DNA of 64,000 nt from Microvirga zambiensis WSM3693 (GTDB lineage Bacteria; Pseudomonadota; Alphaproteobacteria; Rhizobiales; Beijerinckiaceae), in assembly GCF_016735695.1 (NCBI RefSeq), contig NZ_JAERQD010000010.1, positions 1 through 64,000 on the forward strand. Reading direction: 5' to 3'. The notes below the pieces were generated by a model. The model saw nothing but the letters and a program-made list of their open reading frames with translations, was not told where the DNA came from and made no database searches. How positions within the stretch are numbered: position 1 is the first letter of the stretch; each line of letters opens with the position of its first letter. Below are positions 25,400 through 48,456 of the stretch, one piece after another. The translations under genes were made by a program, and so were the position numbers.

Positions 25400-25484
25400 C
25401 GATCTGCGACATTTTCCAATTTGCCCCATCGGAAGCGGCAACCGATGATCCTGGGCATCGATATTCCGATTGGGAGAAGCGCTG

Positions 25485-26654: not shown

Positions 26655-26762
26655 GCTCACCTTATCGAAGATTCCAAAATCAGTATTGGCCCGACACCGA
26701 GCTGCAATCTCAAATTTCCCTACGGTCAAAGGCATCAGCCGAAGCAACGGAGACATCGGCCC

Positions 26763-27557: not shown

Positions 27558-27698
27558 GAGCAGGGCGAATGCGCGGGAGCTCGTTCTCCCGCGCATAATG
27601 GAGCATGAGGCCAAAGAGCGAAGAAGATGCCGGCACAGGCGCGAACGCTCAGCAGAGGAACTCGGACGGCTGTCCTTGAGCGAAAGTGGAGAGAGCGA

Positions 27699-31560: not shown

Positions 31561-31572
31561 ACGGGGATCGAC

Positions 31573-33407: not shown

Positions 33408-34462
33408 CCGACCGGCTTCGCATCAGCGATCTCAAGGTCCATTATCCGGTTCGTAAAGGCTTGCTGCGGCGGGTCGTCGGCGCGGTCCGGGCGGTGGATG
33501 GTGTGAGCCTGTCGATTCCGACCGGCGCAACCTTCGGCCTCGTCGGAGAGAGCGGCTGCGGCAAGAGCTCCCTCGCGAGAGCCATTCTTCAGCTGCAAAA
33601 GCCGAGCGGAGGCAGAATCCTTTTCCGGGCGGAGGGGCAGGACGATGCGGCGACGGACCTGACAGCGCTGAGCCCGCGCAGGCTGCGTGCCTTGCGGCGG
33701 GAGATGCAGATCGTCTTTCAGGATCCCTATTCGGCACTCAACCCGCGTTTGCGCGTGAAGACGATTCTCGATGAGCCCCTGCGGGCAATGGAAACTTTAA
33801 GCCGTGCGGAGCGCCGCGCGCGGATCGTGCGAAGTCTCGAGGCTGTCGGCTTGACGGAGGCTGCTCTGGAGAGATTCCCGCACCAGTTCTCGGGCGGTCA
33901 GCGCCAGCGTATCGCGATCGCCCGCGCGCTCCTCTCGAACCCGAACTTCATCGTCCTCGACGAGCCGGTCTCGGCGCTCGACGTGTCCGTTCGCGCACAG
34001 ATTCTCAATCTTCTCATTCAACTGCAGCGCCAGCTCGGACTGACCTATCTCTTCGTCTCTCACGATCTGTCAGTGGTCAAATATCTCTGCGATCAAGTTG
34101 CCATCATGTATCTCGGGCGCATCGTCGAGAGCGGGCCGACTGCGGAGATTTTTGCCAATCCCCTTCACCCCTATACCAAGCTTCTTCTCGCCGCCGTACC
34201 GGTGCCGAAGCCCCGGCGCGGCAGGAAAGCCGTGAAGCTGCAGGGCGATCCACCGAGCCCCATGAACATTCCCGACGGTTGCCCGTTTCACACCCGCTGC
34301 CCATCGGCGACGGAGGAATGCCGGAAGAGCGTGCCGTACCTCCGCGAACTTGGGTCCGCCCATGTGGTGGCATGCCATCATGCGGAGCGCTTGACCGCAC
34401 AGGAGAGTGTGGCCGCTGCCGGTAATCCGAAGAGCATGATCCCGGTTCGCGCGTCGGCTTGA
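33404..34462 (+). CDS. dppF: peptide ABC ATPase DppF-type
   Basis: This 352-residue second ATPase begins RLRISDLKVHYPVRKGLLRRVVG, typical of DppF. It has Walker [27 protein letters not shown], signature FSGGQRQRIAIARAL, Walker B IVLDEPVSALDVSVRAQIL, and the C-terminal Cys-containing GCPFHTRCPSATEEC. It completes SBP-M20-dppBCDF as one operon. The following 299-base gap suggests the transcript ends here. Confidence 0.95.
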   Translation: MTDRLRISDLKVHYPVRKGLLRRVVGAVRAVDGVSLSIPTGATFGLVGESGCGKSSLARAILQLQKPSGGRILFRAEGQDDAATDLTALSPRRLRALRREMQIVFQDPYSALNPRLRVKTILDEPLRAMETLSRAERRARIVRSLEAVGLTEAALERFPHQFSGGQRQRIAIARALLSNPNFIVLDEPVSALDVSVRAQILNLLIQLQRQLGLTYLFVSHDLSVVKYLCDQVAIMYLGRIVESGPTAEIFANPLHPYTKLLLAAVPVPKPRRGRKAVKLQGDPPSPMNIPDGCPFHTRCPSATEECRKSVPYLRELGSAHVVACHHAERLTAQESVAAAGNPKSMIPVRASA

Positions 34463-34761
34463 TCTTAGAGACGACCGAAGACGGAAGCCTCGGCATCGAA
34501 ATTATGCCCGACAACTCTATGAGCGGGACCGAGGGTCCGAGCTTGGCCGCGAGAGCATATAGCCCTGACCTATACTTCATCCAAATGTTTGAATTTTTCG
34601 CAGTTTTTCTCCTGCGTAAGATGACCTGAAGACGCCGGCACTGACCAAGTTCAGGACGGTTTCGGGCGATCGTGCCTGGAGCGGCCATCCTACTGATCTT
34701 GGCTGAGAGACAGATCAAACGCATCCGGCGTCTCAATGAGGATCACCTTCGGGAGAGGCAG
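34463..34761. other. gap before the amino-acid importer genes
   Basis: This 299-base gap has no gene. It holds a short hairpin GGACC/GGTCC near 34525 and an AT-rich stretch (about 34570-34615, TTTGAATTTTTCGCAGTTTT) that is the likeliest promoter for the next unit. No clear operator or repeat is seen. Confidence 0.35.
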
Positions 34762-35616
34762 ATGAGACATTCAAAGTCGTTCCGGCATTGGCTCGGTGCC
34801 TGTGCACTTACGCTGAGCGCGGCGTTCGCTGGATCCGCCGCCGCGCAGAATGCCGCGGTCGAGACCGTCGTTCCGGGTCAGTTGACGGTGCTCTTCAATC
34901 CGGCCTCGCCGCCGACATCCTTCATCAAGGACGGCAAGGCGACGGGCATGGCCGTGGAGATCGTGGAAGAAATTGCGAGGCGCCACAATCTCAAGGTGGA
35001 ATTCAAGGCGCATGCCGATCTCGCGGGGGCCCTGCCGGCTGTATCGAACCGGCAATATGACCTTGCCGCCATGGGTCTCATGAGAACGCCGGAGCGCGAG
35101 GCCGTCGTCGACTTCTCGGGCTCCTGGTACTATGGCTGGTTTCCGCTGATCGTCGACAAGAGCGCCGGCCTGAACGGCTACAAGGACCTGTCGGGCAAGA
35201 CCGTCGGCATCAACAAGGGCAGCATCCAGGAACGCTATATGTTGGATAACCATCCCAACATTCAGCTGATGGCGTTTCCGAACGACACTGCGGCCGTCGC
35301 GGCGCTCAATGCCGGAAAGGTCGATGGCGTTCTGACGGGCAGTGCGCTGCTCGGAGAGACCCTGAAGCGCTTTCCGCATCTGACGGTGGCGGCACGCACG
35401 CCGACGCCCTACCCGAATGCATTCCCGGTGCGCAAGGGCAACGATTCCCTCCGCAAGGCTCTCGACGACGGGCTGCGCGAGCTCGTCAAGGACGGCACCT
35501 ACGTCAAGATCTTCGACAAGTGGCACGCAGGCGATGCTTTGCCTGAGCCCATGTACAAGGATTATCCCGGCCTGGAGGTCCAGCGCGCTCCCGGCGTAGC
35601 CTCTCCGCGCTCTTAA
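34762..35616 (+). CDS. polar amino-acid-type ABC binding protein (SBP family 3)
   Basis: This 284-residue periplasmic binding protein has a signal peptide ending SAAAQ. Family 3 landmarks are LTVLFNPASPPTSFIKDGKATGMAVEIV near residues 40-65, YDLAAMGLMRTPEREAVVDFS near 100, and the KDLSGKTVGINKGSIQE hinge near 145. GGGAGAGG precedes the ATG at 34762. It is the binding protein for the permease at 38440 and ATPase at 39207, from which it is separated by a gamma-glutamyltransferase-like and a Pht5-like gene. The ligand is probably an amino acid or small peptide. Confidence 0.9.
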   Translation: MRHSKSFRHWLGACALTLSAAFAGSAAAQNAAVETVVPGQLTVLFNPASPPTSFIKDGKATGMAVEIVEEIARRHNLKVEFKAHADLAGALPAVSNRQYDLAAMGLMRTPEREAVVDFSGSWYYGWFPLIVDKSAGLNGYKDLSGKTVGINKGSIQERYMLDNHPNIQLMAFPNDTAAVAALNAGKVDGVLTGSALLGETLKRFPHLTVAARTPTPYPNAFPVRKGNDSLRKALDDGLRELVKDGTYVKIFDKWHAGDALPEPMYKDYPGLEVQRAPGVASPRS

Positions 35617-35645
35617 GCGTCCGAAGGAAGGGCAGGATCGCAATT

Positions 35646-35672
35646 GATGCCGCTGCCGCATGCAGCGGCATC
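35646..35672 (+). other. stem-loop after the binding protein gene, over the GGT start
   Basis: GATGCCGCTGC and its exact complement surround a 5-base loop, 30 bases after the binding-protein stop. The most upstream GGT ATG (35647) lies in the 5' arm, so the stem would hide it, or that ATG is not used. Confidence 0.5.
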
Positions 35673-37410
35673 CGATCCCCCATCTCCATCCCCGGCGGCA
35701 TTTCAGCGCCGCTTCCCGTCACCGGAAAACTGTTTCGAGGGGTCCATGGGCTCGATGGTGGTCTGTCCTGAGCCGCCCGCGGCTGCGGTCGGCGCGGAAA
35801 TCCTGCATCGCGGCGGCAATGCGGCCGATGCGGCCGTTGCTGCGGCATTCGCCCAGGGCGTGACGAATCCGTTTCTCTGCGGACTTGGAGGCACGGCGAT
35901 CCTTCTCGCCATGGATCGGCATGGCGAGACGACCGTGATCGATGGCGAGGCCGAAACCGGGTCAGGCCCCGTTCCCGCCGACTGGATCGAAAACCTCCAG
36001 GGACGCTCCGAGGCGATCGGCCGGTTCATCGTCGACGGGGAGGACAATCAGATCGGCGCCAAGTCGGTGATGGTCCCAGGATTCGTCGCTGCCTGCGCCG
36101 AACTCCACCGCCGGCATGGCAGCGGCAGGCTGTCCTGGGCCGAGCTGATCGCACCATCGATCCGCCTCGCCGCCGGCTTCGAGGTCTATCCCTACATTGC
36201 CGAGATCTGGGCCCGGGAATTCGAGGGGCGTGGGCCCGCGGCTCCAGGATATCCGTCCATCATGGCGAAGTTCGAGCGCGACGATCAGGCACGACGGATC
36301 TATCTCAAGGACGGATCGAAGCCTTATCGGACGGGCGATACGCTGCGCCAGCCGCTCCTGGCGCGGACGCTGGACCGGATCGCGCATGCGGGGCCGGAGG
36401 ACTTCTATCGCGGTGCCGTGGGGCAGAGTCTCGGTGCCGATCTGGAGCGGAAGGGCAGCCTGATCCGAAAGGGCGATATCGCGTCCTACAGAGTGCACGG
36501 GCAGAAGGCGCTGCACAGCCGGTATCGCGGCCACGACATCTATACCTCGCCGCCGCCCAGCCCGGGTGTCCAGCTTGTCGAGATGCTGGGTGTTATCGAG
36601 AAGCTGGATCTCCTGTCACATCCACGCGACAGCCTTGAAGCCGTCGATCTCATCGCGCAGGTCATGCGCGCCGGTTTCGTCGACAACCGCGACGTGAAGG
36701 CGGTTCTGCTCCCGGAGGCCGATGCCTGGACGCGTCGCGTGACGGCGGGCGACCGAATCCGCGATTGGGCGGACCGCATCGCGCGAGGCGAGCGCATCGC
36801 CGGCGAGGTCGAGCGGCAGAGCACCGGGACCACCCACGTGGTGGTGGTCGACGACGATGGCCTCGCGATCAGCTTCACCCATTCGATCGGCTCCGTCGCG
36901 GGATCCGGAACGATCTCGCCGGAGCTAGGCTTCCTGCACAACAACTTCCTCGGCCATTTCGATCCTCGCCCGGGACGGCAGATGTCGATTCTCTCCGGGC
37001 GTCGCATCGGCAGCGGCATGCCGACCATCGTGCGCAAGGATGGCCGCACGAAGCTGGTGATCGGCGCTCCCGGAGGAAGCCGCATCATCACCTCGATATT
37101 CCAGGTTCTGCTGAATGTCGTGGACCGGGACATTGCGGCGGATGTGGCCGTCGGCCTGCCGCGCTTTCACAGCGAGGAGGATCTCCTCGTCCATCTCGAG
37201 CCGGGATGGCCAGACGCCATCCGCTTAGGCCTCGAGGCGAGAGGCTGCAGCGTGCGCTGGAACATCTATCAGGCGCGCGTGCAGGCCATCCAGATCGCAG
37301 ATGATGGCCATCTCATCCCCGGAGCCGATCCCCGCGGCGGCGTCGTCGGACGCGGACCGGGTAGCGCTGCGCTGTCGTCTTCTTATTCCAACTCACCCAT
37401 CGGAGAATGA
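35647..37410 (+). CDS. gamma-glutamyltransferase-like protein
   Basis: This Ntn-hydrolase is related to gamma-glutamyltranspeptidase, which removes the gamma-glutamyl group from glutathione and similar peptides after self-cleavage into two chains. The processing/catalytic threonine lies in STGTTHVVVVD (about residue 395). GGNAADAAVAAAFAQG, CGLGGTAILLAMD, GRRIGSGMPTIV and GAPGGSRIITSIFQ are family blocks. No signal peptide is visible. The start is unclear: ATG 35647 sits in a hairpin; ATG 35746 has GAGGGG just upstream and would remove a Pro/Ala-rich leader of 33 residues. It lies inside an amino-acid importer operon, pointing to use of gamma-glutamyl compounds. Confidence 0.85.
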   Translation: MPLPHAAASDPPSPSPAAFQRRFPSPENCFEGSMGSMVVCPEPPAAAVGAEILHRGGNAADAAVAAAFAQGVTNPFLCGLGGTAILLAMDRHGETTVIDGEAETGSGPVPADWIENLQGRSEAIGRFIVDGEDNQIGAKSVMVPGFVAACAELHRRHGSGRLSWAELIAPSIRLAAGFEVYPYIAEIWAREFEGRGPAAPGYPSIMAKFERDDQARRIYLKDGSKPYRTGDTLRQPLLARTLDRIAHAGPEDFYRGAVGQSLGADLERKGSLIRKGDIASYRVHGQKALHSRYRGHDIYTSPPPSPGVQLVEMLGVIEKLDLLSHPRDSLEAVDLIAQVMRAGFVDNRDVKAVLLPEADAWTRRVTAGDRIRDWADRIARGERIAGEVERQSTGTTHVVVVDDDGLAISFTHSIGSVAGSGTISPELGFLHNNFLGHFDPRPGRQMSILSGRRIGSGMPTIVRKDGRTKLVIGAPGGSRIITSIFQVLLNVVDRDIAADVAVGLPRFHSEEDLLVHLEPGWPDAIRLGLEARGCSVRWNIYQARVQAIQIADDGHLIPGADPRGGVVGRGPGSAALSSSYSNSPIGE

Positions 37411-37415
37411 AACCT

Positions 37416-38399
37416 ATGTCCGACCTGCAATTGAACATGACTCTTCGCGCCTACGATCACCTGACTCCGCTTTTCCTGGGCGATGTGCCAACACCGGGAA
37501 TTAAGCTCAATCTGGATCACCGGGCGCCGCTGACGAGCGCCTTCCCTGAAGGGCTGGCGGCCGCCGAGGTTTCGTTCAATCGCTATGTCCTCGCCGCCGC
37601 GAAAGGTGACGACAGCATCATCGGCCTGCCCGCCTTCATTCTCCGCGGCTTCCGTCACCGGAACTACATCGTGCGCCGTGACAGTCCGCTGGAAACGCTG
37701 GCGGATCTGCGCGGACGCAAGGTCGGGACGAATTCCTGGAGCGATACCGGCACCATGTGGGCGCGCGCCGCGATGCGCGATGCCGGGGTCGAGGTTTCGG
37801 AGGTGCATTGGGTGATCGGCGATCTCGACGAGGCCACCCCTTTGAAGCCTCCGACGGCGCTTGACGTCGATCCGCCGAAAGGGACGCATTTTCTGCGTTC
37901 CGGAGAGGCGCTCATGGGCAAGCTTCGCGAGGGAGGCATCGATGCCGTGACCACAGCCTTCATGCCGGAACCCGTCTTCCAGCCCAATGGCGAGTTCCGT
38001 CGCCTGGTGCGCAACTACCGTGACGTGGAACGTGAATTCCATCATCGCACGGGCGTCTATCCGGGCTTTCATATCGTTGCCGTGCGCCGCGAGTTCGCGG
38101 AGGCGCATCCGGAAGCCGTGATGACCCTCTACCATGCCTTGCGGAAGTCCTGGGACATCTGGTGGTCCAAGGCCAAGAAGTTCGCTGAGGGTTCGCCTTG
38201 GGCCATGGAGGAGATCGAGACCATGGTTCGCGACTTCTCCGGCGATACGCCGCCTTTCGGAACCGAGACGGCCGCACACAGGCGCATGCTCGCCATGATC
38301 TGCCATGAGCAGTTCGCGCAGGGGCTGATTTCCCGCGCCGCCCGGCCGGAAGACCTGTTCAGCGGGTTCGAGAATCTTGGAGCGCGCATCGCCGCCTGA
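37416..38399 (+). CDS. Pht5-like protein (4,5-dihydroxyphthalate decarboxylase family)
   Basis: This ~327-residue protein has a periplasmic-binding-protein-like fold but no signal peptide, as in 4,5-dihydroxyphthalate decarboxylase (Pht5). Similar blocks are FILRGFRHRNYIVRRDSPLE, DLRGRKVGTNSWSDTGTMWAR, and VYPGFHIVAVRREF. The ATG at 37416 is preferred over 37407, because GGAG is then ~10 bases away; the latter is too close. It is set within an amino-acid ABC operon, so a role as cytosolic enzyme or as unusual binding protein is open. The substrate is unknown; aromatic acids are only suggested by the family. Confidence 0.65.
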   Translation: MSDLQLNMTLRAYDHLTPLFLGDVPTPGIKLNLDHRAPLTSAFPEGLAAAEVSFNRYVLAAAKGDDSIIGLPAFILRGFRHRNYIVRRDSPLETLADLRGRKVGTNSWSDTGTMWARAAMRDAGVEVSEVHWVIGDLDEATPLKPPTALDVDPPKGTHFLRSGEALMGKLREGGIDAVTTAFMPEPVFQPNGEFRRLVRNYRDVEREFHHRTGVYPGFHIVAVRREFAEAHPEAVMTLYHALRKSWDIWWSKAKKFAEGSPWAMEEIETMVRDFSGDTPPFGTETAAHRRMLAMICHEQFAQGLISRAARPEDLFSGFENLGARIAA

Positions 38400-38439
38400 G
38401 CGCGGGTGAGAGCGCCGGAAGCATGGTGAGGGGAGCGAA

Positions 38440-39189
38440 ATGCCTGAGGGATTGCAACGACTCTGGCGCACATTCTTCGATGTCGACCAGATCATGGCCA
38501 TACTTCCCGAGATGCTGGCGGTCGGTGTGCCGAACACCATCATCCTGGCTCTGGTGGCGGTGGTCATCGGCACCGTCATCGGGCTGGTCGTCTCCATGAT
38601 GCTGATCAGCCGCAACGCTATCGTGCGGATGCCGGCACGCACGTTCGTGGATGTGTTCCGCGGATTGCCCGTGATTCTGACGATCTACCTTGTCGGTCAG
38701 GGGCTGCCGATCGCAGGCATCCGCATTTTCGGCGGGAACAGCTATGCCTATGCCGCGCTCGCTCTCGGCCTGATCGAGGGCGCCTATATCAGCGAGATCT
38801 TTCGCAGCGGCATACAAAGCGTCGAGCGCGGTCAGATGGAGGCATCGCGTTCCCTCGGGCTTTCCTATTTCGAAACGATGCGCTGGGTCATCGTTCCACA
38901 AGGCATCCGGCGAGTTCTACCGGCCCTGACCGGACAGTTCATCCACATCATCAAAGGATCGTCGCTCGTCTACCTTCTCGGATTGCTGCCGGACCAGCGC
39001 GAGATTTTCAGCATCGCCTCGGACGCGTCGCATATCTCGGGGACATTATCGCCGATGGTGGCGGCTGGAATCGTCTACCTCTGCCTCACCATTCCTCTGA
39101 CTTATGCGGTCAATGCCTTCGACAGGCGACTCCGTGACGGCGCGCGGCCCACACCGGAGCCGGTATTGACGCCGGCGCATCAATCCTAG
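38440..39189 (+). CDS. polar amino-acid ABC permease
   Basis: This 249-residue HisMQ-type permease has five or so helices, the opening MLAVGVPNTIILALVAVVIGT, FVDVFRGLPVILTIYLVGQG, and the EAA loop EASRSLGLSYFETMRWVIVPQGIRR. GAGGGGAG lies before the ATG. One permease gene is present rather than the usual two, so it is probably a homodimeric channel. It works with the ATPase at 39207 (17 bases downstream) and probably the binding protein at 34762. Confidence 0.92.
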   Translation: MPEGLQRLWRTFFDVDQIMAILPEMLAVGVPNTIILALVAVVIGTVIGLVVSMMLISRNAIVRMPARTFVDVFRGLPVILTIYLVGQGLPIAGIRIFGGNSYAYAALALGLIEGAYISEIFRSGIQSVERGQMEASRSLGLSYFETMRWVIVPQGIRRVLPALTGQFIHIIKGSSLVYLLGLLPDQREIFSIASDASHISGTLSPMVAAGIVYLCLTIPLTYAVNAFDRRLRDGARPTPEPVLTPAHQS

Positions 39190-39206
39190 CATCGAGGTCG
39201 GCTGCC

Positions 39207-39953
39207 ATGTCTTCATCCCGCCATCCCGTCGGCGTGCACGCCGAGAACATTACCAAGGTGTTCGACCGCCATCCCGTTCTCCAGGACGTCAGCCTGAAGG
39301 TCGAGCCGGGGACAACCACCTGCATCATCGGTCCATCGGGATCCGGTAAGTCGACCTTCCTGAGATGCATCAACCGGCTGGAGGAGCCGACGGCGGGCCG
39401 CATCGTGATCGGGGGAGAAGACATAACGAGCGATGATGCGGACATCGATGCCATCCGCTCGCGTGTCGGCATGGTGTTCCAGAGCTTCAATCTCTTCCCT
39501 CACATGACCGTTCTCCGCAACATCACGCTGGCCTTGATGCGCGTGCGGAAAATGCCGCGGGATCAAGCGGTTGCCGTTGCAGAGGCTCAGCTCGAAGAGG
39601 TCGGCCTCCTGGCTTTGAAGGATCGGCGCCCATCCCAGCTCTCTGGCGGCCAGCAGCAGCGCGTCGCCATTGCCCGGGCTCTTGCGATGCAGCCGGACGT
39701 CATGCTCTTCGACGAAGCGACATCCGCACTCGACCCGGAGCTGGTCAAGGGCATTCTCGAGATCATGAAGCGTTTGGCCGCGTCCGGCATGACGATGATG
39801 GTGGTCACCCACGAGCTGCGTTTCGCCCGCGAGGCTGCCAATCAGGTCGTCTTCCTCGACAGAGGGCACATTGTCGAAAGCGGGCCGCCGGACAAAGTCT
39901 TCAACACGCCATCGTCGGACAGATTAAGGGAGTTCTTGTCGCAGATGTTATAG
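39207..39953 (+). CDS. polar amino-acid ABC ATPase (GlnQ-type)
   Basis: This 248-residue ATPase has Walker A GPSGSGKST, FQSFNLFPHMTVLRNI typical of GlnQ/HisP, signature LSGGQQQRVAIARAL, Walker B VMLFDEATSALDPELV, and the switch His in VVTHELRFAREAA. It powers the permease encoded just before it. GAGG lies ~9 bases before the ATG. It is followed by 377 bases containing a tandem glycine riboswitch that serves the next gene. Confidence 0.94.
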   Translation: MSSSRHPVGVHAENITKVFDRHPVLQDVSLKVEPGTTTCIIGPSGSGKSTFLRCINRLEEPTAGRIVIGGEDITSDDADIDAIRSRVGMVFQSFNLFPHMTVLRNITLALMRVRKMPRDQAVAVAEAQLEEVGLLALKDRRPSQLSGGQQQRVAIARALAMQPDVMLFDEATSALDPELVKGILEIMKRLAASGMTMMVVTHELRFAREAANQVVFLDRGHIVESGPPDKVFNTPSSDRLREFLSQML

Positions 39954-40088
39954 GGTACTAGTTGCCTGTCGAGGCAGAAGCATGCCACTCGGTGGGTGCG
40001 CTGCATCTATCGTGCCGTGCCAAGGCGCGGCTCGGCTTCTGCGTGATCTTCAGAGGAAATGCGGAAGAAATTGTTTTGTCTGGAAAGG

Positions 40089-40196
40089 CGATGCGGGAGA
40101 GTCCGATCTGGAATAATCCAGGCCGGCGCCGACGGAGCAACACCCCGGAATCTCTCAGGCTCAAGGACCGTATCGCTGGACAATCTGGAGAGAGGC
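40089..40196 (+). ncRNA. glycine riboswitch, aptamer 1
   Basis: The sequence matches the glycine aptamer core closely: GGGAGAGTCC at 40094, GCGCCGACGGAGCAA at 40126-40140, TCTCTCAGGCTCAAGGACCG at 40151-40170, and CTGGAGAGA near 40185. These are the conserved internal-loop elements of the glycine riboswitch. A second aptamer follows directly, giving the cooperative tandem form. It sits 130-240 bases upstream of the DadA-like gene. In most known cases glycine binding turns expression on for glycine cleavage or transport. Confidence 0.9.
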
Positions 40197-40282
40197 GGTG
40201 CTCCGCCCACCGAAGGGGATACCGAGCGTCGATGAGGCGGTCAGGTTAAGCTCTCAGGTACCCGAGACAGATGGGGATCGTC
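40197..40282 (+). ncRNA. glycine riboswitch, aptamer 2
   Basis: CCCACCGAAGGGG (about 40205), AGCTCTCAGGTACCCGAGACAG (split near 40250-40270) and GATGGGGA match the conserved elements of the second aptamer, GCTCTCAGGT being the clearest. The junction to aptamer 1 is short, as in natural tandem glycine riboswitches. Confidence 0.85.
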
Positions 40283-40284
40283 GG

Positions 40285-40300
40285 ACCGCCGCAGGGCGGT
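40285..40300 (+). promoter_or_regulatory. hairpin between riboswitch and dadA-like start
   Basis: ACCGCC-GCAG-GGCGGT forms a 6-base-pair stem 3 bases after aptamer 2 and about 20 bases before the ribosome site (GGGAG, 40319-40323). There is no T-run, so if it is the expression platform it more likely affects translation or anti-stem formation than intrinsic termination. Confidence 0.45.
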
Positions 40301-40330
40301 TCAGAGACCTTGCTGCTTGGGAGAACGTAT

Positions 40331-41587
40331 ATGCCTCATATCGTCGTTATCGGAGCCGGAATTACCGGTGTGACTACAGCCTACGCGCTTCTCAAACGCG
40401 GTTTCGACGTAACCGTCATCGAGCGGCATCGCTATGCCGGGATGGAAACTTCCTTCGCCAACGGAGGCCAATTGTCCGCGAGCAACGCGGAGGTGTGGAA
40501 CAGTACCTCGACCATCCTCAAGGGGCTGTCCTGGATGATGCGCAAGGACGCACCGCTTCTGTTCAATCCGCTTCCCAGCTGGCACAAGCTCTCCTGGATA
40601 TCGGAGTTCGTCGCGCAGATCCCGCATTACCGCCGGAATACGGTCGAGACGACACGGCTGGCCATTCAAGCCCGCCGTTATCTTTTCGAGATAGCGGAGG
40701 ACGAGAAGATCGATTTCAATCATGAGCGCCGCGGCATTCTTCATATCTATCGCGACCGGAAAAGCTTCGAGCATGCGGCGTCGGTCAATGGCCTTCTGCG
40801 TGAGGGCGGGCTCGACCGGTATGCCGTCACCTCCGAGGAGATCCATGCGATCGAACCGGAGCTGCATGGAACCTACTACGGCGGCTTCTTCACGCCCTCC
40901 GATTCAACAGGGGACATCCACAAGTTCACGCGCGGCCTGGCGAGCGCCTGCGAGCGTTTGGGTGGGAGGTTCATCTATGACGCGGCTTTCGAGCGGATCG
41001 CGCATCTGAAATCCGGAGTGGAGATTACGTGGAGGTCTACCAAGGCAGTCGATGACTCGGCCCGTTCTGCTGCATCGAATCGCATTGCGGCTCATGGCGT
41101 CGTCGTGTGCGCAGGAACCGCCAGCAGGGCCATCGCCAACCATCTCGGTGACCGGGTCAATGTCTACCCCGTCAAAGGCTATTCCATCACGGTCCATCTC
41201 GATTCCGAACAGAGTCGGAACAGTGCCCCATGGGTCAGCCTCCTTGACGATAAGGCAAAGATCGTCACGAGCCGGCTCGGTATCGATCGGTTCCGCGTCG
41301 CCGGCACGGCCGAGTTCAACGGATTCAACAAGGATATCAGAGCCAATCGGATCAGACCCCTGGCCGATTGGACCCGCGACCTCTTCCCCGGCATCGAGAT
41401 GACGAAGGTCGTTCCGTGGAGCGGCTTGAGACCGATGATGCCGAGTATGCTGCCCTATACGAAGGCAAGCCGGCGGCCGAACGTGTTCTATAACACCGGC
41501 CATGGGCATCTCGGCTGGACCTTGTCTGCGGCCACATCGGAAATCGTAGCCGAGAAAGTCAGACAGGCCGTGGCCGGGGCGGGTTGA
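40331..41587 (+). CDS. DadA-like FAD amino-acid dehydrogenase under glycine riboswitch
   Basis: This 418-residue flavoprotein of the DadA/glycine-oxidase superfamily oxidatively deaminates small amino acids. The FAD motif GAGITG is at residues ~8-13, followed by VIERHRYAGMETSFANGGQLSASNAEVW, very like D-amino-acid dehydrogenase. C-terminal landmarks are PWSGLRPMMPSMLP and NTGHGHLGWTLSAATSEIVAE. GGGAG lies 7 bases before the ATG. The upstream tandem glycine riboswitch argues that glycine (or sarcosine/D-Ala-like amino acids) is the physiological signal and perhaps substrate; exact specificity is not readable. Confidence 0.88.
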   Translation: MPHIVVIGAGITGVTTAYALLKRGFDVTVIERHRYAGMETSFANGGQLSASNAEVWNSTSTILKGLSWMMRKDAPLLFNPLPSWHKLSWISEFVAQIPHYRRNTVETTRLAIQARRYLFEIAEDEKIDFNHERRGILHIYRDRKSFEHAASVNGLLREGGLDRYAVTSEEIHAIEPELHGTYYGGFFTPSDSTGDIHKFTRGLASACERLGGRFIYDAAFERIAHLKSGVEITWRSTKAVDDSARSAASNRIAAHGVVVCAGTASRAIANHLGDRVNVYPVKGYSITVHLDSEQSRNSAPWVSLLDDKAKIVTSRLGIDRFRVAGTAEFNGFNKDIRANRIRPLADWTRDLFPGIEMTKVVPWSGLRPMMPSMLPYTKASRRPNVFYNTGHGHLGWTLSAATSEIVAEKVRQAVAGAG

Positions 41588-41638
41588 CGGCGCAAGCTAG
41601 CCCTTGGCACCTGCTGGCAGAGCGCATTCGGAAGTCTC

Positions 41639-42436
41639 TCATGACGCTTCGGACAGCCTGTCCTCCCGCACGTGAAGGGTAACACCGCTTATCCGCAGCG
41701 CATCGGCCATAGGCCCTGTGGGCAAGGCCTCGGTCACGATGTCCGAGAGGTCTCTCAAGCGACAGACAAGCTCGAGATGACGGCGATTGAACTTGCTGGA
41801 GGCAACGAGCAGAGCCCGCCTCTCTGCCCGCTCCAGCATCTTGCGCTTGACCCAGCAGGCACCTGATTCCACATCGTTGGGGCCGTCCGGTGTCAGGCCA
41901 CTGGCGCCGATGAATGCGATGTCGGCGTTGAAGCGATCCAAAAACGCGCAGGTCTCAGGTCCGTAGACGCCGCCTTCGTGAGCGGAGAACTCTCCCGGAC
42001 AAAGGACGACACGGGTCTTCTTTTGCGGTGCGAGCGCCTGCGCGACGGCAAGGCAGTTGGTGATCACCGTCAGGCCGTCGATGGAATAGGCCAGGGCTCG
42101 TGCGAAATGGGCCGTCGTCGAGCCCGAATCGATCATCAGCACGTCGCCCGGCTTGACCATCCGGACAGCCATGCGGGCAATGGTGTCGCGCTCTTGGACT
42201 GCCGTTGCGTCACGATCCTGAAATCCTGGCTGCAGGCCGAGCTGGAGACCGGTCGCGCCGCCATAGGTGCGGCTGACGAGACCGCGCCGCGTCATCTCTT
42301 CGATATCGCGCCGGACCGTTTCCGCGGAGACACCAAGACGGGTGGCGAGCTCGGAGGTCCTGACGCTGGGGCTGAGGGCAAGCTCGGTCATGATGACCCG
42401 CTGGCGGGTGGCCTTTTTCCCTTCCGAGAATGACAT
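41639..42436 (-). CDS. DeoR-family regulator
   Basis: This 265-residue DeoR/GlpR-type repressor has an N-terminal HTH (ATRQRVIMTELALSPSVRTSEL, LGVSAETVRRDIEEMTRRGLVSRTYGGA) and a C-terminal sugar-phosphate isomerase-like sensor domain with VMIDSGSTTAHFARAL, the family signature VITNCLAVAQAL, and IAFIGASGL. The ATG at 42436 has AGGA 8 bases upstream; a longer open frame to 42499 lacks support. It is divergent from the HAD/Ugp-type importer operon (144-base gap), so it likely represses it, with a phosphorylated sugar or polyol as the inducer. Confidence 0.9.
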   Translation of the reverse strand: MSFSEGKKATRQRVIMTELALSPSVRTSELATRLGVSAETVRRDIEEMTRRGLVSRTYGGATGLQLGLQPGFQDRDATAVQERDTIARMAVRMVKPGDVLMIDSGSTTAHFARALAYSIDGLTVITNCLAVAQALAPQKKTRVVLCPGEFSAHEGGVYGPETCAFLDRFNADIAFIGASGLTPDGPNDVESGACWVKRKMLERAERRALLVASSKFNRRHLELVCRLRDLSDIVTEALPTGPMADALRISGVTLHVREDRLSEAS

Positions 42437-42580
42437 CGACAAAATCCTGAAACAGTCGAGCGGCCATATTGTGTGGTCTTCCTCAAAAATTTTGGACATT
42501 CCACATTAGTATGATTGATCTTCCAAATTTCTATTCCTAAGGTCCACAGAAAATACGGTGAGCCGGCTAAAGGGAGTGAG

Positions 42581-43438
42581 ATGTACTCAGATGCAGCCCA
42601 TGGCGCGGACGCCGCTCGAGAGGTTGAGAAAATGAAGCCCCTGTCCGCGCTGTCTCTGAAGGCGGCTCGCTCCATCCGTGTGGTGCTGACGGACATCGAC
42701 GACACGATAACCACCGACGGGCAGCTCACCGCTGATGCCTATGCCGCTCTCGAGCGCCTGCATCAGGCGGGTTTCCTCGTGATCCCGGTCACCGGCCGCC
42801 CCGCTGGATGGTGCGATCACATCGCCCGCATGTGGCCGGTGGATGCGGTGGTGGGCGAGAACGGGGCCTTCTATTTCCGCTACGACCGGGCCACCAAGAC
42901 CATGCGCCAGCGCTTCTGGGCCAAGCCGGAGGAGTTCGAGCGCAATCGAGCCAAGCTCGATGCCATCGAGAAAGAAGTGCTGGCGAATGTGCCGGGGGCG
43001 GCGCTCGCCAGCGACCAGCCTTACCGTTTGGCCGATCTCGCCATCGATTTCTGCGAGGACGTGCCGCCGCTGCCGGAGGCGGAGGTGGACCGGATCGTCG
43101 CGATTTTCGAGCGTCATGGTGCGCAGGCCAAGGTCAGCTCGATCCACGTCAACGGCTGGTTCGGCGATTACGACAAGCTGAGCATGGCGAAGGTCGTGCT
43201 CGCCGACGAGTTCGGGATCGGCTGGGACGAGGCCAGGGCCTGCGTCGTCTATGCCGGCGACTCGCCCAATGACGAGCCGATGTTCGCGGCGTTTCCGCTG
43301 AGTGTCGGCGTCGCCAACATCCAGGCCTTCGCGCATCGGCTCAGGCACAAGCCGGCCTTCATCGCGCAGGGCCATTCGGGGGAAGGCTTCATCCAGCTTG
43401 CGGAAGTGCTGCTCGGGGCACGAGAGAAGACTGCCTGA
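42581..43438 (+). CDS. HAD-superfamily IIB phosphatase (sucrose-phosphatase-like)
   Basis: This 285-residue HAD phosphatase has motif I LTDIDDTIT (Asp nucleophile and Asp acid), motif II PVTGRP, motif III Lys in KLSMAKVVLAD, and motif IV AGDSPNDEPMF. The C2-type cap is that of the Cof/SPP subfamily, which removes phosphate from sugar phosphates. GGGAGTGAG precedes the ATG; it is the first gene of the operon HAD-ugpC-ugpB-ugpA-ugpE-EEP. A phosphatase at the head and a phosphodiesterase-fold enzyme at the tail of an importer suggest that the imported solute, or its product, is phosphorylated. Specific substrate unknown. Confidence 0.88.
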   Translation: MYSDAAHGADAAREVEKMKPLSALSLKAARSIRVVLTDIDDTITTDGQLTADAYAALERLHQAGFLVIPVTGRPAGWCDHIARMWPVDAVVGENGAFYFRYDRATKTMRQRFWAKPEEFERNRAKLDAIEKEVLANVPGAALASDQPYRLADLAIDFCEDVPPLPEAEVDRIVAIFERHGAQAKVSSIHVNGWFGDYDKLSMAKVVLADEFGIGWDEARACVVYAGDSPNDEPMFAAFPLSVGVANIQAFAHRLRHKPAFIAQGHSGEGFIQLAEVLLGAREKTA

Positions 43439-43465
43439 TATCAGAAAGCCATAGGTTCGACGCTC

Positions 43466-44467
43466 ATGTCCGAAATCGTTGTCAATGCCGTGTCGAAATC
43501 CTGGGGAGGCGTGGGAGGCGTCGACCGGATCAGCTTCAAGGCCGAGGCGGGGACGCTTCTCGTCCTGCTCGGTCCCTCCGGATGCGGCAAGTCCACGACC
43601 CTGCGGCTCATCGCCGGGCTCGAGGAGGTCGATTCCGGCACGATCACCATCGGAGGCAGAGATGTCACTCATCTCTCACCGGCCGAACGGCGCATCTCAA
43701 TGGTGTTCCAGTCCTACGCCCTCTTTCCCCATCTGAACGTCGCCGAAAACATCATCTTCGGCCTGAAGGTTCGTCGTGTCGGGCGTGCCGAGCGGGAGGC
43801 GCGGCTGAAGAAGGTCGCCGATATTGTCGGCCTATCGCATCTGCTCGAGCGCAAGCCGTCCCAATTGTCCGGTGGTCAGCGCCAGCGTGTCGCTCTCGGG
43901 CGCGCGATCATAGCGGAGGCGCCGGTCTGCCTGATGGACGAGCCTCTGTCCAACCTCGATGCCAAGCTGCGCCACGAGATGCGCACGGAAATCCGCAGCC
44001 TGCAGCAAAGGCTCGGGATGACGATGGTCTATGTCACACATGACCAGACCGAAGCGATGACCATGGCCGACCGGGTGATCCTGATGCGCGACGGTCACAT
44101 CGAGCAGAACGGGGCTCCGCACGAACTCTATAACGAGCCGGCGAGCGATTTCACCGCGCGTTTCATCGGCACTCCGCCCATGAACATCATTGGGTGGCGC
44201 GACGGATCGCTTCTGGGCGTCCGCCCCGAGCACATTTCCCTGGTGGAGCGCGACGGAGTATCGGCGAGGGTCAAGGCGGTCGAGTATCTCGGCGCCGACA
44301 GCATCATTCTCTGCGACACGGACGGAGGAACGGTCTGCGTCCGCCAGACAGGATACTGCTCGCTGCCAGCCGGTGCGCAAGTCGAGCTGGGGTGGCAAAA
44401 CTGTCATATACATCTGTTTGACAAGGACAGCGGAAAGCGTCGCACCGGCGGTGTCTCGCCGCACTGA
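43466..44467 (+). CDS. carbohydrate-type ABC ATPase (UgpC/MalK-like)
   Basis: This 333-residue ATPase has Walker A GPSGCGKST, FQSYALFPHLNVAENIIFGL, signature LSGGQRQRVALGRAI, Walker B VCLMDEPLSNLDAKLR, and a C-terminal OB-fold domain (TOBE) with LLGVRPEHISLV. It is shorter than typical UgpC (~355) in the last domain. It lies second in the operon, before its binding protein, and has a weak ribosome site. It works with the ugpA/ugpE permeases and the binding protein at 44546. Confidence 0.92.
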   Translation: MSEIVVNAVSKSWGGVGGVDRISFKAEAGTLLVLLGPSGCGKSTTLRLIAGLEEVDSGTITIGGRDVTHLSPAERRISMVFQSYALFPHLNVAENIIFGLKVRRVGRAEREARLKKVADIVGLSHLLERKPSQLSGGQRQRVALGRAIIAEAPVCLMDEPLSNLDAKLRHEMRTEIRSLQQRLGMTMVYVTHDQTEAMTMADRVILMRDGHIEQNGAPHELYNEPASDFTARFIGTPPMNIIGWRDGSLLGVRPEHISLVERDGVSARVKAVEYLGADSIILCDTDGGTVCVRQTGYCSLPAGAQVELGWQNCHIHLFDKDSGKRRTGGVSPH

Positions 44468-44545
44468 TCGCTTTCTTCTGAAGAAACGCAGGCGGCAACA
44501 GCCGCAGGCGCGAAGCTTCAAAGAAGCTCGAAACGGGAGGGTAAA

Positions 44546-45829
44546 ATGAAGTTCAAGTCGAAGGCCCTGCTCACCGCAGGTTTCATGACGCTGGCGAGCC
44601 TGGGCGCAACCACCGCTCAAGCGGTCGATCTCACTATGTATTATCCGGTCGCGGTCGGCGGTCCGGTCACGAAGATCATCGACGAGATGGTGCAGGGTTT
44701 CCAGAAGGAAAACCCGGATATCAAGATCGAGGCGGTCTACGCCGGCAACTATACCGACACCATGACCAAAGCCATGACGGCCATGAAGGGTGGGCAGCCG
44801 CCGCAGCTGTCGGTCCTGTTCTCCACCGACCTGTTCACGCTGATGGACGAGCAGGCCATCGTGCCGATCGATGAGCTCGCCGGGTCCGACGGCAAGGAAT
44901 GGCTCAACAGCTTCTATCCCGCGTTCATGGAGAACGGTCAGGTCGGCGGCAAGACCTGGAGCGTTCCGTTCCAGCGCTCCACCATCGTGCTTTACTACAA
45001 CAAGGACGCCTTCAAGGAAGCCGGCCTCGATCCGGAGAAGCCGCCGGCGACCTGGGCCGAGATGGCTGAGGTGTCGAAGAAGCTCGTGAAGAAGGACGCA
45101 TCCGGCAACGTGACCCGCTGGGGTGTCGAGATTCCCTCCACGGGATACGGCTACTGGATGCTGCAGGCGCTCGCCATCGAGAATGGGCAGAAGCTCATGA
45201 ACGAGGCCGGCAACAAGACCTTCTTCAACGAGAAGAAGACGGTCGAGGCCCTGCAGTACTGGGTCGATCTGGCCGCCAAGGACGGCGTGATGCCGAAGGG
45301 TGCCGTGGAGTGGGGAACCCTGCGCACGGACTTCCTCGAAGGCAAGACCGCCATGATGTGGCACACGACCGGTAATCTCACGGCCGTGAAGGAAGGCGCC
45401 AAGTTCAATTTCGGCGTCGCCATGCTGCCTGCCAAGGAGCAGCGCGGATCGCCGACGGGCGGCGGCAACTTCTATGTCTTCAAGAGCGCCACTCCCGAGC
45501 AGCAGAAGGCGGCGGTGAAGTTCATCCGGTGGATGACCGCTCCCGAGCGGGCCGCCGACTGGAGCATCAAGACCGGTTATGTGGCTGTCACCCCGGCCGC
45601 CTACGAGACGGAAACGATGAAGACCTATGTGAAGGGCTTCCCGCAGGCGATCGTGGCGCGCGATCAGCTCAAGCACGCGGTTGCCGAGCTGTCGGTGCAT
45701 GACAACGGACGCATCTACAAGATCGTCAACGATGCCGTGCAAGCCGCCGTCACGGGCTCTCAGAGCCCGCAGGAAGCCCTGGAGAGCGCTCAGAAGCAGT
45801 CCGAGCGGGTTCTCAGCCGCTACAAGTAG
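44546..45829 (+). CDS. ABC binding protein UgpB-like (SBP family 1)
   Basis: This 427-residue extracytoplasmic binding protein has a signal peptide (LLTAGFMTLASLGATTAQA) and begins VDLTMYYPVAVGGPVTKIIDEMVQGF, close to UgpB-type proteins that bind glycerol 3-phosphate or glycerophosphodiesters. WSVPFQRSTIVLYYNKDAF and TGNLTAVKEGAKFNFGVAML match the hinge strands of the family. CGGGAGGG precedes the ATG. The ligand is inferred from the neighbouring phosphatases only. A perfect hairpin (45842-45868) follows before the permease genes. Confidence 0.92.
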   Translation: MKFKSKALLTAGFMTLASLGATTAQAVDLTMYYPVAVGGPVTKIIDEMVQGFQKENPDIKIEAVYAGNYTDTMTKAMTAMKGGQPPQLSVLFSTDLFTLMDEQAIVPIDELAGSDGKEWLNSFYPAFMENGQVGGKTWSVPFQRSTIVLYYNKDAFKEAGLDPEKPPATWAEMAEVSKKLVKKDASGNVTRWGVEIPSTGYGYWMLQALAIENGQKLMNEAGNKTFFNEKKTVEALQYWVDLAAKDGVMPKGAVEWGTLRTDFLEGKTAMMWHTTGNLTAVKEGAKFNFGVAMLPAKEQRGSPTGGGNFYVFKSATPEQQKAAVKFIRWMTAPERAADWSIKTGYVAVTPAAYETETMKTYVKGFPQAIVARDQLKHAVAELSVHDNGRIYKIVNDAVQAAVTGSQSPQEALESAQKQSERVLSRYK

Positions 45830-45841
45830 TCAGCAATCCAT

Positions 45842-45868
45842 GCGTCGCGGCGATGCCCGCCGCGACGC
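45842..45868 (+). other. intercistronic stem-loop ugpB-ugpA
   Basis: GCGTCGCGGCG and its exact complement enclose a 5-base loop, 12 bases after the binding-protein stop. Without a T-run, it fits a 3' stabiliser that raises binding-protein levels over permease levels. Confidence 0.55.
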
Positions 45869-45893
45869 GATCGTCCTGCATCAGGAGAGATCG

Positions 45894-46811
45894 ATGGTCG
45901 CCGCCGTGATGAGCGATGCCGCGCCGAGTGCTGCCAAGCGCAGAACCTGGACGACGAGCATCAATGCCTGGCTCCTGCTGCTGCCGGCCATCGTTCTTCT
46001 TGCGACCTTTACGCACTATCCGATCCTCGCCACGCTCTATCACAGCTTCTTCTCCCTCGGCCGGAGCGGCCCTGCCGAGTTCATCGGCCTGGACAATTAC
46101 CGCTACATGCTAGACGACGACGTCTTCCGGCAGGTGCTGCGCAACAATTTCATCTTCGCCATCGCGACCGTTCCGACGAGCATTGCGCTTGCGCTCCTGA
46201 TGGCCGTCTGGGTCGACAAGAAGATCGTCGGCCGTTCCTTCCTGCGCCTCGCATTCTTCACGCCGACGGTGCTTCCGATGATCGCGGTGGCCAATATCTG
46301 GCTGTTCTTCTACACGCCGGATTACGGCCTCCTCGACCAGTTCCTGAGGTTTCTCGGGTTCGCCGGCCACAATTGGCTCGGCGATCCAGCCACCGTCATG
46401 AGTTGCCTCGCGGTCATGGTAGTCTGGAAGGAGGCCGGCTTCTTCATGATCTTCTATCTGGCCGCCCTGCAGACCATCCCGCCAGAACTGAAGGAGGCGG
46501 CATCCGTCGAAGGGGCGAGCCGCTGGTATTTCTTCCGTCGCGTGACGCTTCCGTTGCTCATGCCGACGACTTTGTTCATTTCCATCAATGCGCTGATCAA
46601 CTCGTTCAAGCTGGTCGATCAGCTCGTCATCATGACCAAGGGAGGGCCGAACAACGCCAGCTCCCTGCTGCTCTACTACATCTATGAGGTGGCCTTTAAC
46701 TTCTGGGATACCACCTATGCCGCGACGCTGACGGTGACTCTCATCACCATCCTGGCAGCAGTGGCTCTTACCAAATTCGTCTATCTCGATCGCAGGATCC
46801 ACTACCAATGA
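45894..46811 (+). CDS. carbohydrate-type ABC permease UgpA-like
   Basis: This ~305-residue inner-membrane permease (CUT1 type) has six helices, NAWLLLLPAIVLLATFTHYPI near the start, and the EAA loop PPELKEAASVEGASRWYFFRRVTLPLL. GPNNASSLLLYYIYE and the C-terminal TKFVYLDRRIHYQ match UgpA. The ATG at 45894 has AGGAGAG just upstream; open frame before it is not protein-like and includes the hairpin. Its stop overlaps ugpE by 4 bases. Confidence 0.92.
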   Translation: MVAAVMSDAAPSAAKRRTWTTSINAWLLLLPAIVLLATFTHYPILATLYHSFFSLGRSGPAEFIGLDNYRYMLDDDVFRQVLRNNFIFAIATVPTSIALALLMAVWVDKKIVGRSFLRLAFFTPTVLPMIAVANIWLFFYTPDYGLLDQFLRFLGFAGHNWLGDPATVMSCLAVMVVWKEAGFFMIFYLAALQTIPPELKEAASVEGASRWYFFRRVTLPLLMPTTLFISINALINSFKLVDQLVIMTKGGPNNASSLLLYYIYEVAFNFWDTTYAATLTVTLITILAAVALTKFVYLDRRIHYQ

Positions 46812-47617
46812 GAAGAGACAGCTACTCGATCGAGACTCTCGCCGCCTGGACCCTTGCTCTTCTCTGGCTTCTGCCGTTGGCCTATAGCCTCTGGAGCGCG
46901 TTCCATCCGTCGGAATACGCGACACGCTTCGACCTCACTGCGCCCCTTACATTCAACAACTTCGTCAAGGCCTGGAACCAGGCGCCTTTTGCCCGGTACT
47001 ATCTCAATACGCTCATGCTCGTGAGTCTGGTGCTGGCCGGTCAGCTCGTCATCGCGACACTGGCCGCCTATGCCTTTGCCCGATTCAAGTTCGTTGGTAG
47101 GGACGTTCTTTTCGCCTTGGTCCTCGTGCAGCTCATGATCATGCCGGACGTGCTGATCGTCGAGAATTATCGGGTCATCAGTGCGCTCAACCTCCTCGAC
47201 ACGATACCGGCCATCGCACTGCCTTACATGGCATCGGCTTTCGGAATCTTCCTGCTGCGCCAGACTTTTAAGGGTGTACCGACCGAACTGGTCGAGGCGG
47301 CACGTGTCGAGGGTGCCTCGTCCTTCGGCGTGCTGTGGCGTGTCTTCGTGCCTCTCGGCAAGACCACCTATATTGCCTTCGGTCTCGTCTCGGTGAGCTA
47401 TCACTGGAACAATTTTCTTTGGCCGCTCATCGTGACGAACTCCGTGGAGAGCCGCCCGCTGACCGTCGGCCTGGCTGTCTTCGGGGCCCCTGAAACGGGA
47501 GTCGACTGGTCGGTCATCACGGCAGCCACCGTCATGACGATGGCGCCTCTGCTTCTTGCCTTCCTGCTGTTCCAGCGCCAATTCGTTCAATCCTTCATGC
47601 GCGCAGGGATCCGCTGA
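46808..47617 (+). CDS. carbohydrate-type ABC permease UgpE-like
   Basis: This 269-residue second permease has six helices, LPLAYSLWSAFHPSEYATRF near residue 25, the EAA loop PTELVEAARVEGASSFGVLWRVFVPLG, and SYHWNNFLWPLIVTNS. It pairs with the UgpA-like protein. Its stop and the next ATG share one base (TGATG), coupling it to the phosphodiesterase-fold gene. Confidence 0.92.
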   Translation: MRRDSYSIETLAAWTLALLWLLPLAYSLWSAFHPSEYATRFDLTAPLTFNNFVKAWNQAPFARYYLNTLMLVSLVLAGQLVIATLAAYAFARFKFVGRDVLFALVLVQLMIMPDVLIVENYRVISALNLLDTIPAIALPYMASAFGIFLLRQTFKGVPTELVEAARVEGASSFGVLWRVFVPLGKTTYIAFGLVSVSYHWNNFLWPLIVTNSVESRPLTVGLAVFGAPETGVDWSVITAATVMTMAPLLLAFLLFQRQFVQSFMRAGIR

Positions 47618-48456
47618 TGAAGATCGTCACGTGGAACATTCAATGGGGGCTCGGCTGCGACGGCCGGATCGATCTCGCCCGCATCGTTCGGACCGCGAAG
47701 GAGTTGGGCGATGCGGATGTCTTCTGCTTTCAGGAGATCTCCAGTGGCTTTGCCGCCCATGACGGTGGCGAGGATCAGCCAGCGATCATTGCCTCGCTGC
47801 TGCCGGGTTACCGGCCGATTTTCCGTCCCGCTGTCGAGAAGCTCGACGAGAACGGCAGGCTTCAGGTCTTCGGCAACATGATTCTGTCACGTCTGCCAGT
47901 GCTGCAGATCATCAGCCATATGCTGCCTTGGCCGGCGACACCCTGCAAAAGCATGCAGCGCCAGGCGCTGGAGATTCTCGTGGAGAGTTCGTTCGGTGCC
48001 TTGCGCGTAATCACCACTCATCTGGAATACCACTCCGAAATCCATCGGGAGGCGCAGATCGGCTATCTGCGTACGATTCACGAGGAGGGTGAGAAGCGAA
48101 GCCAGATCGGATTCGAGGATCGCTCCGAAGGGTCATACCGCACCATGCCGCGACCAGTAGGAACCGTCATCTGCGGCGACTTCAATCTCGGGCCGGACGA
48201 GAAGCTCCATCGCGACATTCAGGAGCCATACGCGCGGGGCGTGCCTCGACTTCTCGATGCCTGGACCGTTGCTCACGGTCGGACGCCGCACGCCCCGACC
48301 ACGGGCGTGGCGGATTTCAAGCAATGGCCGCAAGGACCCCATTGCCGGGATTATTTCTTCGTGACGGAGAACCTGACCGAACGTGTCGCGCAGGTGCAGG
48401 TGGATGTCGAGACGACGGCATCCGATCATCAACCGCTGATGCTTGAGTTGAAGTAG
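47617..48456 (+). CDS. endonuclease/exonuclease/phosphatase-fold hydrolase
   Basis: This 279-residue EEP-fold protein has the metal and catalytic set of phosphodiesterases: TWNIQW (Asn), FCFQEI (Glu), ITTHLEYHS (His), VICGDFNLGP (Asp-Asn), RDYFFV (Asp) and TTASDHQPL (Asp-His). No signal peptide is present. As the last gene of a Ugp-type importer operon it may split an imported glycerophosphodiester or similar compound to a phosphomonoester, which the HAD enzyme could then use. This is inferred from context; a DNA-repair role is less likely because of the operon. A short hairpin (48457-48471) follows. Confidence 0.88.
   Translation: MKIVTWNIQWGLGCDGRIDLARIVRTAKELGDADVFCFQEISSGFAAHDGGEDQPAIIASLLPGYRPIFRPAVEKLDENGRLQVFGNMILSRLPVLQIISHMLPWPATPCKSMQRQALEILVESSFGALRVITTHLEYHSEIHREAQIGYLRTIHEEGEKRSQIGFEDRSEGSYRTMPRPVGTVICGDFNLGPDEKLHRDIQEPYARGVPRLLDAWTVAHGRTPHAPTTGVADFKQWPQGPHCRDYFFVTENLTERVAQVQVDVETTASDHQPLMLELK

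Follow-up and report, generated by a model that had tools for sequence, protein, structure and literature searches.

Glycine switches on gcv operons, and the same is reportedly true, going by the title of a 2014 study by Tezuka and Ohnishi, for the gcv operon of Streptomyces griseus. Glyoxylate is both the product of glycine oxidation and the substrate of malate synthase. A glycine riboswitch has been described upstream of the malate synthase gene glcB in Pelagibacter (Kazanov, 2007, PMC2211319; PMC2704228). The pertinent sections of Crum (2019, PMC6944388) treat only gcv and transport contexts of glycine riboswitches, and those of Sun (2013, PMC3766115) give glycine cleavage, transport and serine metabolism as targets. 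A survey from 2025 (PMC12452182) mentions COG0665 a single time in the pertinent passages of its main text, under TPP. The pairing of a glycine riboswitch with a dadA-like gene was not found in the literature searched; supplements (e.g. with the twelve glycine-metabolism targets of Sun, 2013) and subscription papers lay outside its scope and the pairing may be known. The riboswitch class as such is known, and the target family and the implied pathway may be new.

Such a pairing is present in the window, i.e. in the whole stretch of 64,000 nucleotides from Microvirga zambiensis WSM3693 that was analysed (Table 1). The preliminary description had proposed a tandem glycine riboswitch at this place, and the conserved elements it quoted are indeed found in the sequence. 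The Rfam model RF00504 (gathering score 32) recovers aptamer 1 with cmscan (E-value of 1.4e-10 for the whole window) as well as in a search of the whole genome. In the latter both aptamers exceed the gathering score, and the cmscan output contains aptamer 1 only, with aptamer 2 absent at either threshold. Models R1 and R2, which were trained on relatives including the window's own leader, place the two aptamers at 40088-40177 and 40178-40277, respectively. The core positions that correspond to invariant columns in 40 aligned leaders, the window's own among them, are present in both aptamers. A chance match was considered and is rejected by the scores and by the recurrence in relatives. As far as can be judged from sequence, it is confirmed that the region 40084-40280 is a two-aptamer glycine riboswitch, and the riboswitch class supports the earlier proposal of glycine as the predicted signal for the locus. 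In the organism's own genome (7.36 Mb in 257 contigs), the only other RF00504 matches found form a tandem on contig C188 that precedes a gcvT-like gene, named by resemblance only.

Table 1. Features of the riboswitch-dadA locus, with positions in the window.
Feature	Position	Strand	Evidence
Glycine riboswitch aptamer 1 (RF00504)	40084..40180	+	62.6 bits; R1 80.3 bits
Glycine riboswitch aptamer 2 (RF00504)	40175..40280	+	48.3 bits; R2 86.3 bits
P1 helix of aptamer 2, 5' strand (AUCUG)	40183..40187	+	sequence; pairing enforced in fold model
Predicted anti-SD segment (CCCGAG), aptamer-2 junction	40261..40266	+	free-fold pairing with 40316-40321
P1 helix of aptamer 2, 3' strand (CAGAU)	40268..40272	+	sequence; pairing enforced in fold model
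Shine-Dalgarno (SD) region (CUUGGGAG)	40316..40323	+	sequence; fold model
DadA-like FAD-dependent dehydrogenase, 418 aa, NF009074 (PRK12409)	40331..41587	+	706.5 bits, cut-off 494

The tandem riboswitch ends 50 nt upstream of ATG 40331, the likely start codon of dadA. This start position is common to many homologues and a GGGAG stretch is located ahead of it at 40319-40323. The gene is intact and monocistronic. The gene that follows (DeoR type, 41639-42499) has the opposite orientation, which leaves dadA as the sole gene in reach of the riboswitch, as had been stated previously.

The assignment of the encoded protein to the DadA/glycine oxidase superfamily of flavoproteins likewise stands. It passes the NF009074 equivalog cut-off over its full length (residues 1-414) and matches Pfam DAO with 234 bits. 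NF009074 is named 'D-amino acid dehydrogenase' by NCBI, a name that is an annotation. The second-best NCBIfam match is classical DadA (PRK00711, NF001933) with 324.5 bits, below the cut-off of 383, and the score for glycine oxidase ThiO (TIGR02352), an enzyme serving thiamine synthesis, is 134.5 bits, below its cut-off of 250.8. The closest sequences in the PDB are glycine oxidases (best E 3.5e-13) and glycine oxidases are also the top Foldseek matches of an AlphaFold2 model of the protein (pLDDT 88.4), with a TM-score of 0.83 by target length for 4ysh. Heterotetrameric sarcosine oxidase is the fifth Foldseek match, and dimethylglycine enzymes also occur among the fold neighbours. In a phmmer alignment to 3if9, His393 of the window protein takes the place of the arginine in the GHFRNG motif of glycine oxidases, which we take to be the substrate-binding residue of the Bacillus enzyme; this arginine is not present in the window protein. 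When the NF009074 family (130 proteins) is compared with PRK00711 (12 proteins), 24 alignment positions turn out to be conserved differently. Among them, His393 is found in all of the 129 family rows filled at that column and threonine in 12 of 12 PRK00711 proteins. Judged by family and active-site motif, the protein is closer to DadA than to ThiO.

The leader may well contain an expression platform acting on translation. In the minimum-energy fold of 40176-40345, the CCCGAG segment of the aptamer-2 junction pairs with CUUGGG (40316-40321) and thereby covers the GGG of the SD sequence. The probability that this GGG is unpaired rises from 0.00-0.01 in the free fold to 0.52-0.72 once P1 of aptamer 2 is enforced. 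According to the model, the fold with enforced P1 is less stable by about 14 kcal/mol (-70.9 vs. -57.1), part of which would have to be paid by the ligand and by tertiary contacts, both of which lie outside the fold model. The AUG start codon is mostly paired in both modelled states. On the basis of these folds, the leader fits a translational ON switch. In the absence of glycine, the junction would pair with the SD region and the gene would be shut; in its presence, P1 of aptamer 2 would form and the ribosome site would be freed.

Similar complementarity is found in part of the other leaders. In a set of 102 leaders, from which copies (L002, L003, L033, L035, L036), leaders identical downstream and homologues without an aptamer motif had been dropped, pairing of the aptamer-2 junction with its own SD region yields -5.9 kcal/mol versus -4.49 (sd 0.16) for swapped partners, a difference reached in none of 5000 permutations, which correct only partly for kinship among the leaders and in which the junction boundary of L116 was off (corrected for the junction-type subsets). 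Complementarity is strong (-6 kcal/mol or below in the 25 nt before the start) in 43 of the 102 leaders and weaker than that in the other 59. On average, the fit is best some 20 nt ahead of the start codon, and a second, lower maximum occurs about 12 nt into the gene. When the leaders are divided by junction type, own partners beat swapped ones for the TA/CA type (33 leaders, 15 sequences) and for the other T types (55 leaders, 20 sequences), both with 0/5000, and are not clearly better for the CC type (14 leaders, 2 sequences; 364/5000). The CC-type leaders (L117, L101, L103, L135, L137 and similar) may rely on a different pairing in the vicinity of the ribosome site. A weaker tendency (43/5000) is exhibited by 25 other glycine-riboswitch leaders of the family, judged by eye to belong mostly to gcvT, with four that look like gcvP, some doubtful starts and L033 dropped.

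A riboswitch acting mainly on transcription, via intrinsic or Rho-dependent termination and with all other steps unchanged, would be in line with the GC-rich hairpin (ACCGCC-GGCGGU) that follows aptamer 2. This hairpin lacks a T run behind it. An intrinsic terminator was searched for, and no terminator-like site was detected in 39900-41700 compared with 1.3 expected in shuffled sequences. With own SD complementarity exceeding swapped complementarity in two of the three leader sets, we regard control mainly at the level of transcription, for which a Rho-dependent action is conceivable, as improbable and favour control of translation.

The pairing of riboswitch and dadA is not peculiar to this locus; nearly the entire enzyme subfamily has it, in alpha- and betaproteobacteria as well as in some of the gammaproteobacteria. 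Named homologues were found by peptide patterns, and among the best 80 of 94, R1 and R2 detect the two aptamers immediately ahead of the gene in 75, with no further aptamer match within the up to 9 kb examined. The remaining five (L037, L040, L088, L095, L104) are without riboswitch. Of these 80 loci, 21 had served to train the two models; 54 of the other 59 are matched, two of them being copies of L034. When 18 loci are searched with Rfam RF00504 itself, one or both aptamers are recovered in 16 and the complete tandem in 11. Both aptamers are likewise detected by R1 and R2 in 32 of 32 loci from the same genus and family, 16 of which trained the models (the set comprises 3/3 from one search and the best 29 of 39 other genomes matched). 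They are also present in all 15 plasmid loci, which represent 15 of 65 matched records and include L187, identical in place to L115. The order was sampled irrespective of closeness to the window by searching 199 genomes with NF009074. Outside the organism's own genome, RF00504 precedes 17 of the 20 genes over the cut-off, and the three without it are distant and all stem from one small-genome genus. Neither R1 nor R2 matches upstream of 12 true DadA (PRK00711) genes, one of which is from the organism's own genome. A FastTree phylogeny built from 145 proteins accommodates the riboswitch label with 6 changes as compared with 19.0 for shuffled labels, and 4 changes are already required by the well-supported branches alone. 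This distribution is readable as a single gain after the small-genome branch had split off and five separate losses thereafter, with branches that are long and a root order that is not firm.

Some of these organisms feature particular arrangements. Bradyrhizobium sacchari carries three riboswitch-dadA copies (L034, L035, L036) with identical proteins on three contigs, and Polynucleobacter JS-Safj-400b-B2 has two separate riboswitch-dadA loci (L078, L111). The dadA gene without riboswitch in Polynucleobacter parvulilacunae (L104:2625-5215) overlaps an upstream gene for an APC-family amino acid permease in an apparent operon. In Paraburkholderia phenoliruptrix, a match to a SAM-I/IV riboswitch (L192:5429-5534) lies a short way upstream of the glycine riboswitch and has the opposite orientation.

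As regards the substrate, gene neighbourhoods are the most telling evidence, and they are informative at a minority of the loci. In Microvirga VF16, the nearest relative, a kbl-riboswitch-dadA-malate synthase G arrangement resides on one strand. Malate synthase G follows dadA in four of the 15 plasmid loci, the others being Aminobacter pAA03 and pAM01 and Mesorhizobium loti NZP2037, in which its same-strand gene begins 17-36 bases downstream of dadA. The kbl gene (glycine C-acetyltransferase) is near dadA in 3/15 plasmid loci; Paraburkholderia phenoliruptrix has kbl and tdh downstream of dadA and M. japonicum has kbl on the other strand. RidA is also near dadA in 3/15. In loci L194-L201, the neighbouring genes are taken solely from annotation, and that of L195 is sparse (three features). 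A different set of genes is found among the best 80 of the 94 named loci, where dadA has gcvP within some 4 kb upstream in 11 loci and is immediately followed by sdaA in 15 loci, all of them Burkholderiales according to record titles. The order in Hydrogenophaga taeniospiralis, for example, is gcvH, gcvP, riboswitch, dadA, sdaA. Malate synthase G, kbl and tdh as well as the probed RidA and heme-binding proteins are found in none of these best 80 loci within a flank of up to 4 kb. The neighbours in some relatives are consistent with an oxidation of glycine to glyoxylate.

In the genome of strain WSM3693 itself, malate synthase G is encoded elsewhere than at the window locus. It is represented by two partial matches to different parts of the profile (L203 on C22 and L204 on C13), both of which start at contig base 79, and which are possibly one gene split by the assembly. 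Upstream of the riboswitch, family searches identify same-strand genes for a dipeptide-type ABC ATPase, a family-3 binding protein, a gamma-glutamyltransferase and an amino-acid-type permease with ATPase. Farther upstream, the translations resemble an M20-like amidohydrolase, other parts of a dipeptide transporter and an M20 peptidase, gene names upstream of 33404 being given by resemblance only. Altogether, 25470-39953 harbours a long set of same-strand genes that looks like uptake and cleavage of peptides or gamma-glutamyl compounds, and these genes could release glycine. Hydrolysis of hippurate as a glycine source would be a guess; the two neighbouring amidohydrolases tested score above the cut-off only for the broad TIGR01891. 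The idea of a transporter/gamma-glutamyltransferase cluster forming a fixed unit with dadA was not borne out in six relatives (L181-L186), since the only window neighbours recurring near dadA (E 1e-20) are ABC ATPases, with 31-50% identity, in two of the six (L181, L183). On the other side of dadA, in 41639-47617, the gene for a DeoR-type regulator is oriented divergently to those for a HAD-IIB hydrolase and a sugar-type ABC transporter, and a plasmid of Bradyrhizobium sp. 195 carries DNA that is 77% identical over about 44621-47736.

With the neighbourhoods in hand, two further readings can be weighed. The riboswitch could be real and of the ON type with an enzyme for the oxidation of D-alanine, D-serine or further D-amino acids. 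Glycine would then serve as a cue, for instance because its excess disturbs the use of D-alanine in the cell wall or because it arrives together with D-amino acids. The telling neighbours (malate synthase G, kbl/tdh, gcvP, sdaA) argue against this, as they concern glyoxylate, glycine, threonine and serine, and so do the separate true DadA in the organism's own genome, the lack of the riboswitch before all 12 true DadA genes and the 24 positions, including His393 versus threonine, that separate the two families. The NCBI family name, PRK00711 as the second-best match and the locus of B. vietnamiensis G4 (one of the 15 plasmid loci), in which dadA has an alanine racemase and a further D-amino-acid dehydrogenase as neighbours, speak for it, and overall we consider D-amino acids rather unlikely as the substrates. 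A highly improbable reading is that of an enzyme making glycine, e.g. from sarcosine or another N-substituted glycine, under feedback repression by an OFF riboswitch. The similarity in fold to sarcosine oxidases and dimethylglycine enzymes would suit it, but the predicted platform sequesters the SD sequence in the ligand-free state, and part of the relatives' neighbours use glyoxylate (malate synthase G) or degrade glycine and serine.

We return to glycine as the substrate and consider it probable that the tandem riboswitch turns on the translation of a DadA-like flavoenzyme, which most likely oxidises glycine to glyoxylate. Computation establishes the RNA, its family-wide pairing with the gene, the gene context and, for some of the leaders, the complementarity to the SD region. 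Glycine would be oxidised to iminoacetate, which would yield glyoxylate and ammonia. FAD would take up the electrons and, if the analogy with DadA holds, hand them on to the respiratory chain, and malate synthase could turn the glyoxylate into malate. We infer the binding of glycine, control of the ON type, the substrate and the electron acceptor. The disposal of glycine by oxidative deamination, as put forward in the preliminary description, is in part supported by the context in relatives (malate synthase G, kbl/tdh, gcvP, sdaA, RidA) and by the anti-SD platform predicting ON control. Its characterization as an 'alternative' route holds only in a relative sense, because the genome also carries a riboswitch-linked gcvT-like gene. 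Owing to the latter and to the location of malate synthase G elsewhere in the genome, the glyoxylate route is possible and not exclusive.

A riboswitch reports the metabolite to which a gene answers. In the present case, it speaks for glycine as the metabolite to which a family with the annotation 'D-amino acid dehydrogenase' really responds, which makes for a concrete and cheaply testable reassignment. The riboswitch-dadA pair points to a little-noticed second breakdown of glycine via glyoxylate, beside the glycine cleavage system, and suggests a proteobacterial route from glycine or threonine-derived glycine through glyoxylate to malate. More tentatively, and with a likelihood that in our estimation falls just short of even, the whole NF009074 family could consist of misnamed glycine dehydrogenases, i.e. 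flavoenzymes of the respiratory chain that have been under glycine-riboswitch control since early in the history of the Proteobacteria and that supply central metabolism with glycine, and via tdh/kbl also threonine, by way of glyoxylate and malate synthase in a second inducible route beside the glycine cleavage system.

Among known systems, the tandem glycine riboswitch of gcv operons is comparable to the RNA in the window in having two aptamers with the same core and one expression platform, and the organism's own genome contains one before the gcvT-like gene. The other glycine leaders of the family, mostly gcvT by eye, exhibit an SD complementarity that is similar to that of the dadA leaders but weaker. 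The target differs, as it is a single gene for a DadA-like flavoenzyme and not a gcv gene or a transporter. DadA (PRK00711) shares the GHGxLGWT motif with the window protein, which does not reach the DadA cut-off, and it has threonine where the NF009074 family has His393; its genes, in 12 of 12 cases tested, lack the riboswitch. ThiO has the same fold and provides the nearest PDB sequences and structures, but its cut-off is not reached either and its GHFRNG motif contrasts with GHGHLGW in the window protein. In Pelagibacter, the riboswitch before glcB ties the sensing of glycine to the use of glyoxylate, as would malate synthase G behind dadA in some relatives studied here, and a route from glycine via glyoxylate to malate would make sense of this known malate synthase riboswitch. 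The genome of strain WSM3693 differs from that of Pelagibacter in that malate synthase G resides elsewhere and the gene linked to the riboswitch is that of the enzyme presumed to make glyoxylate.
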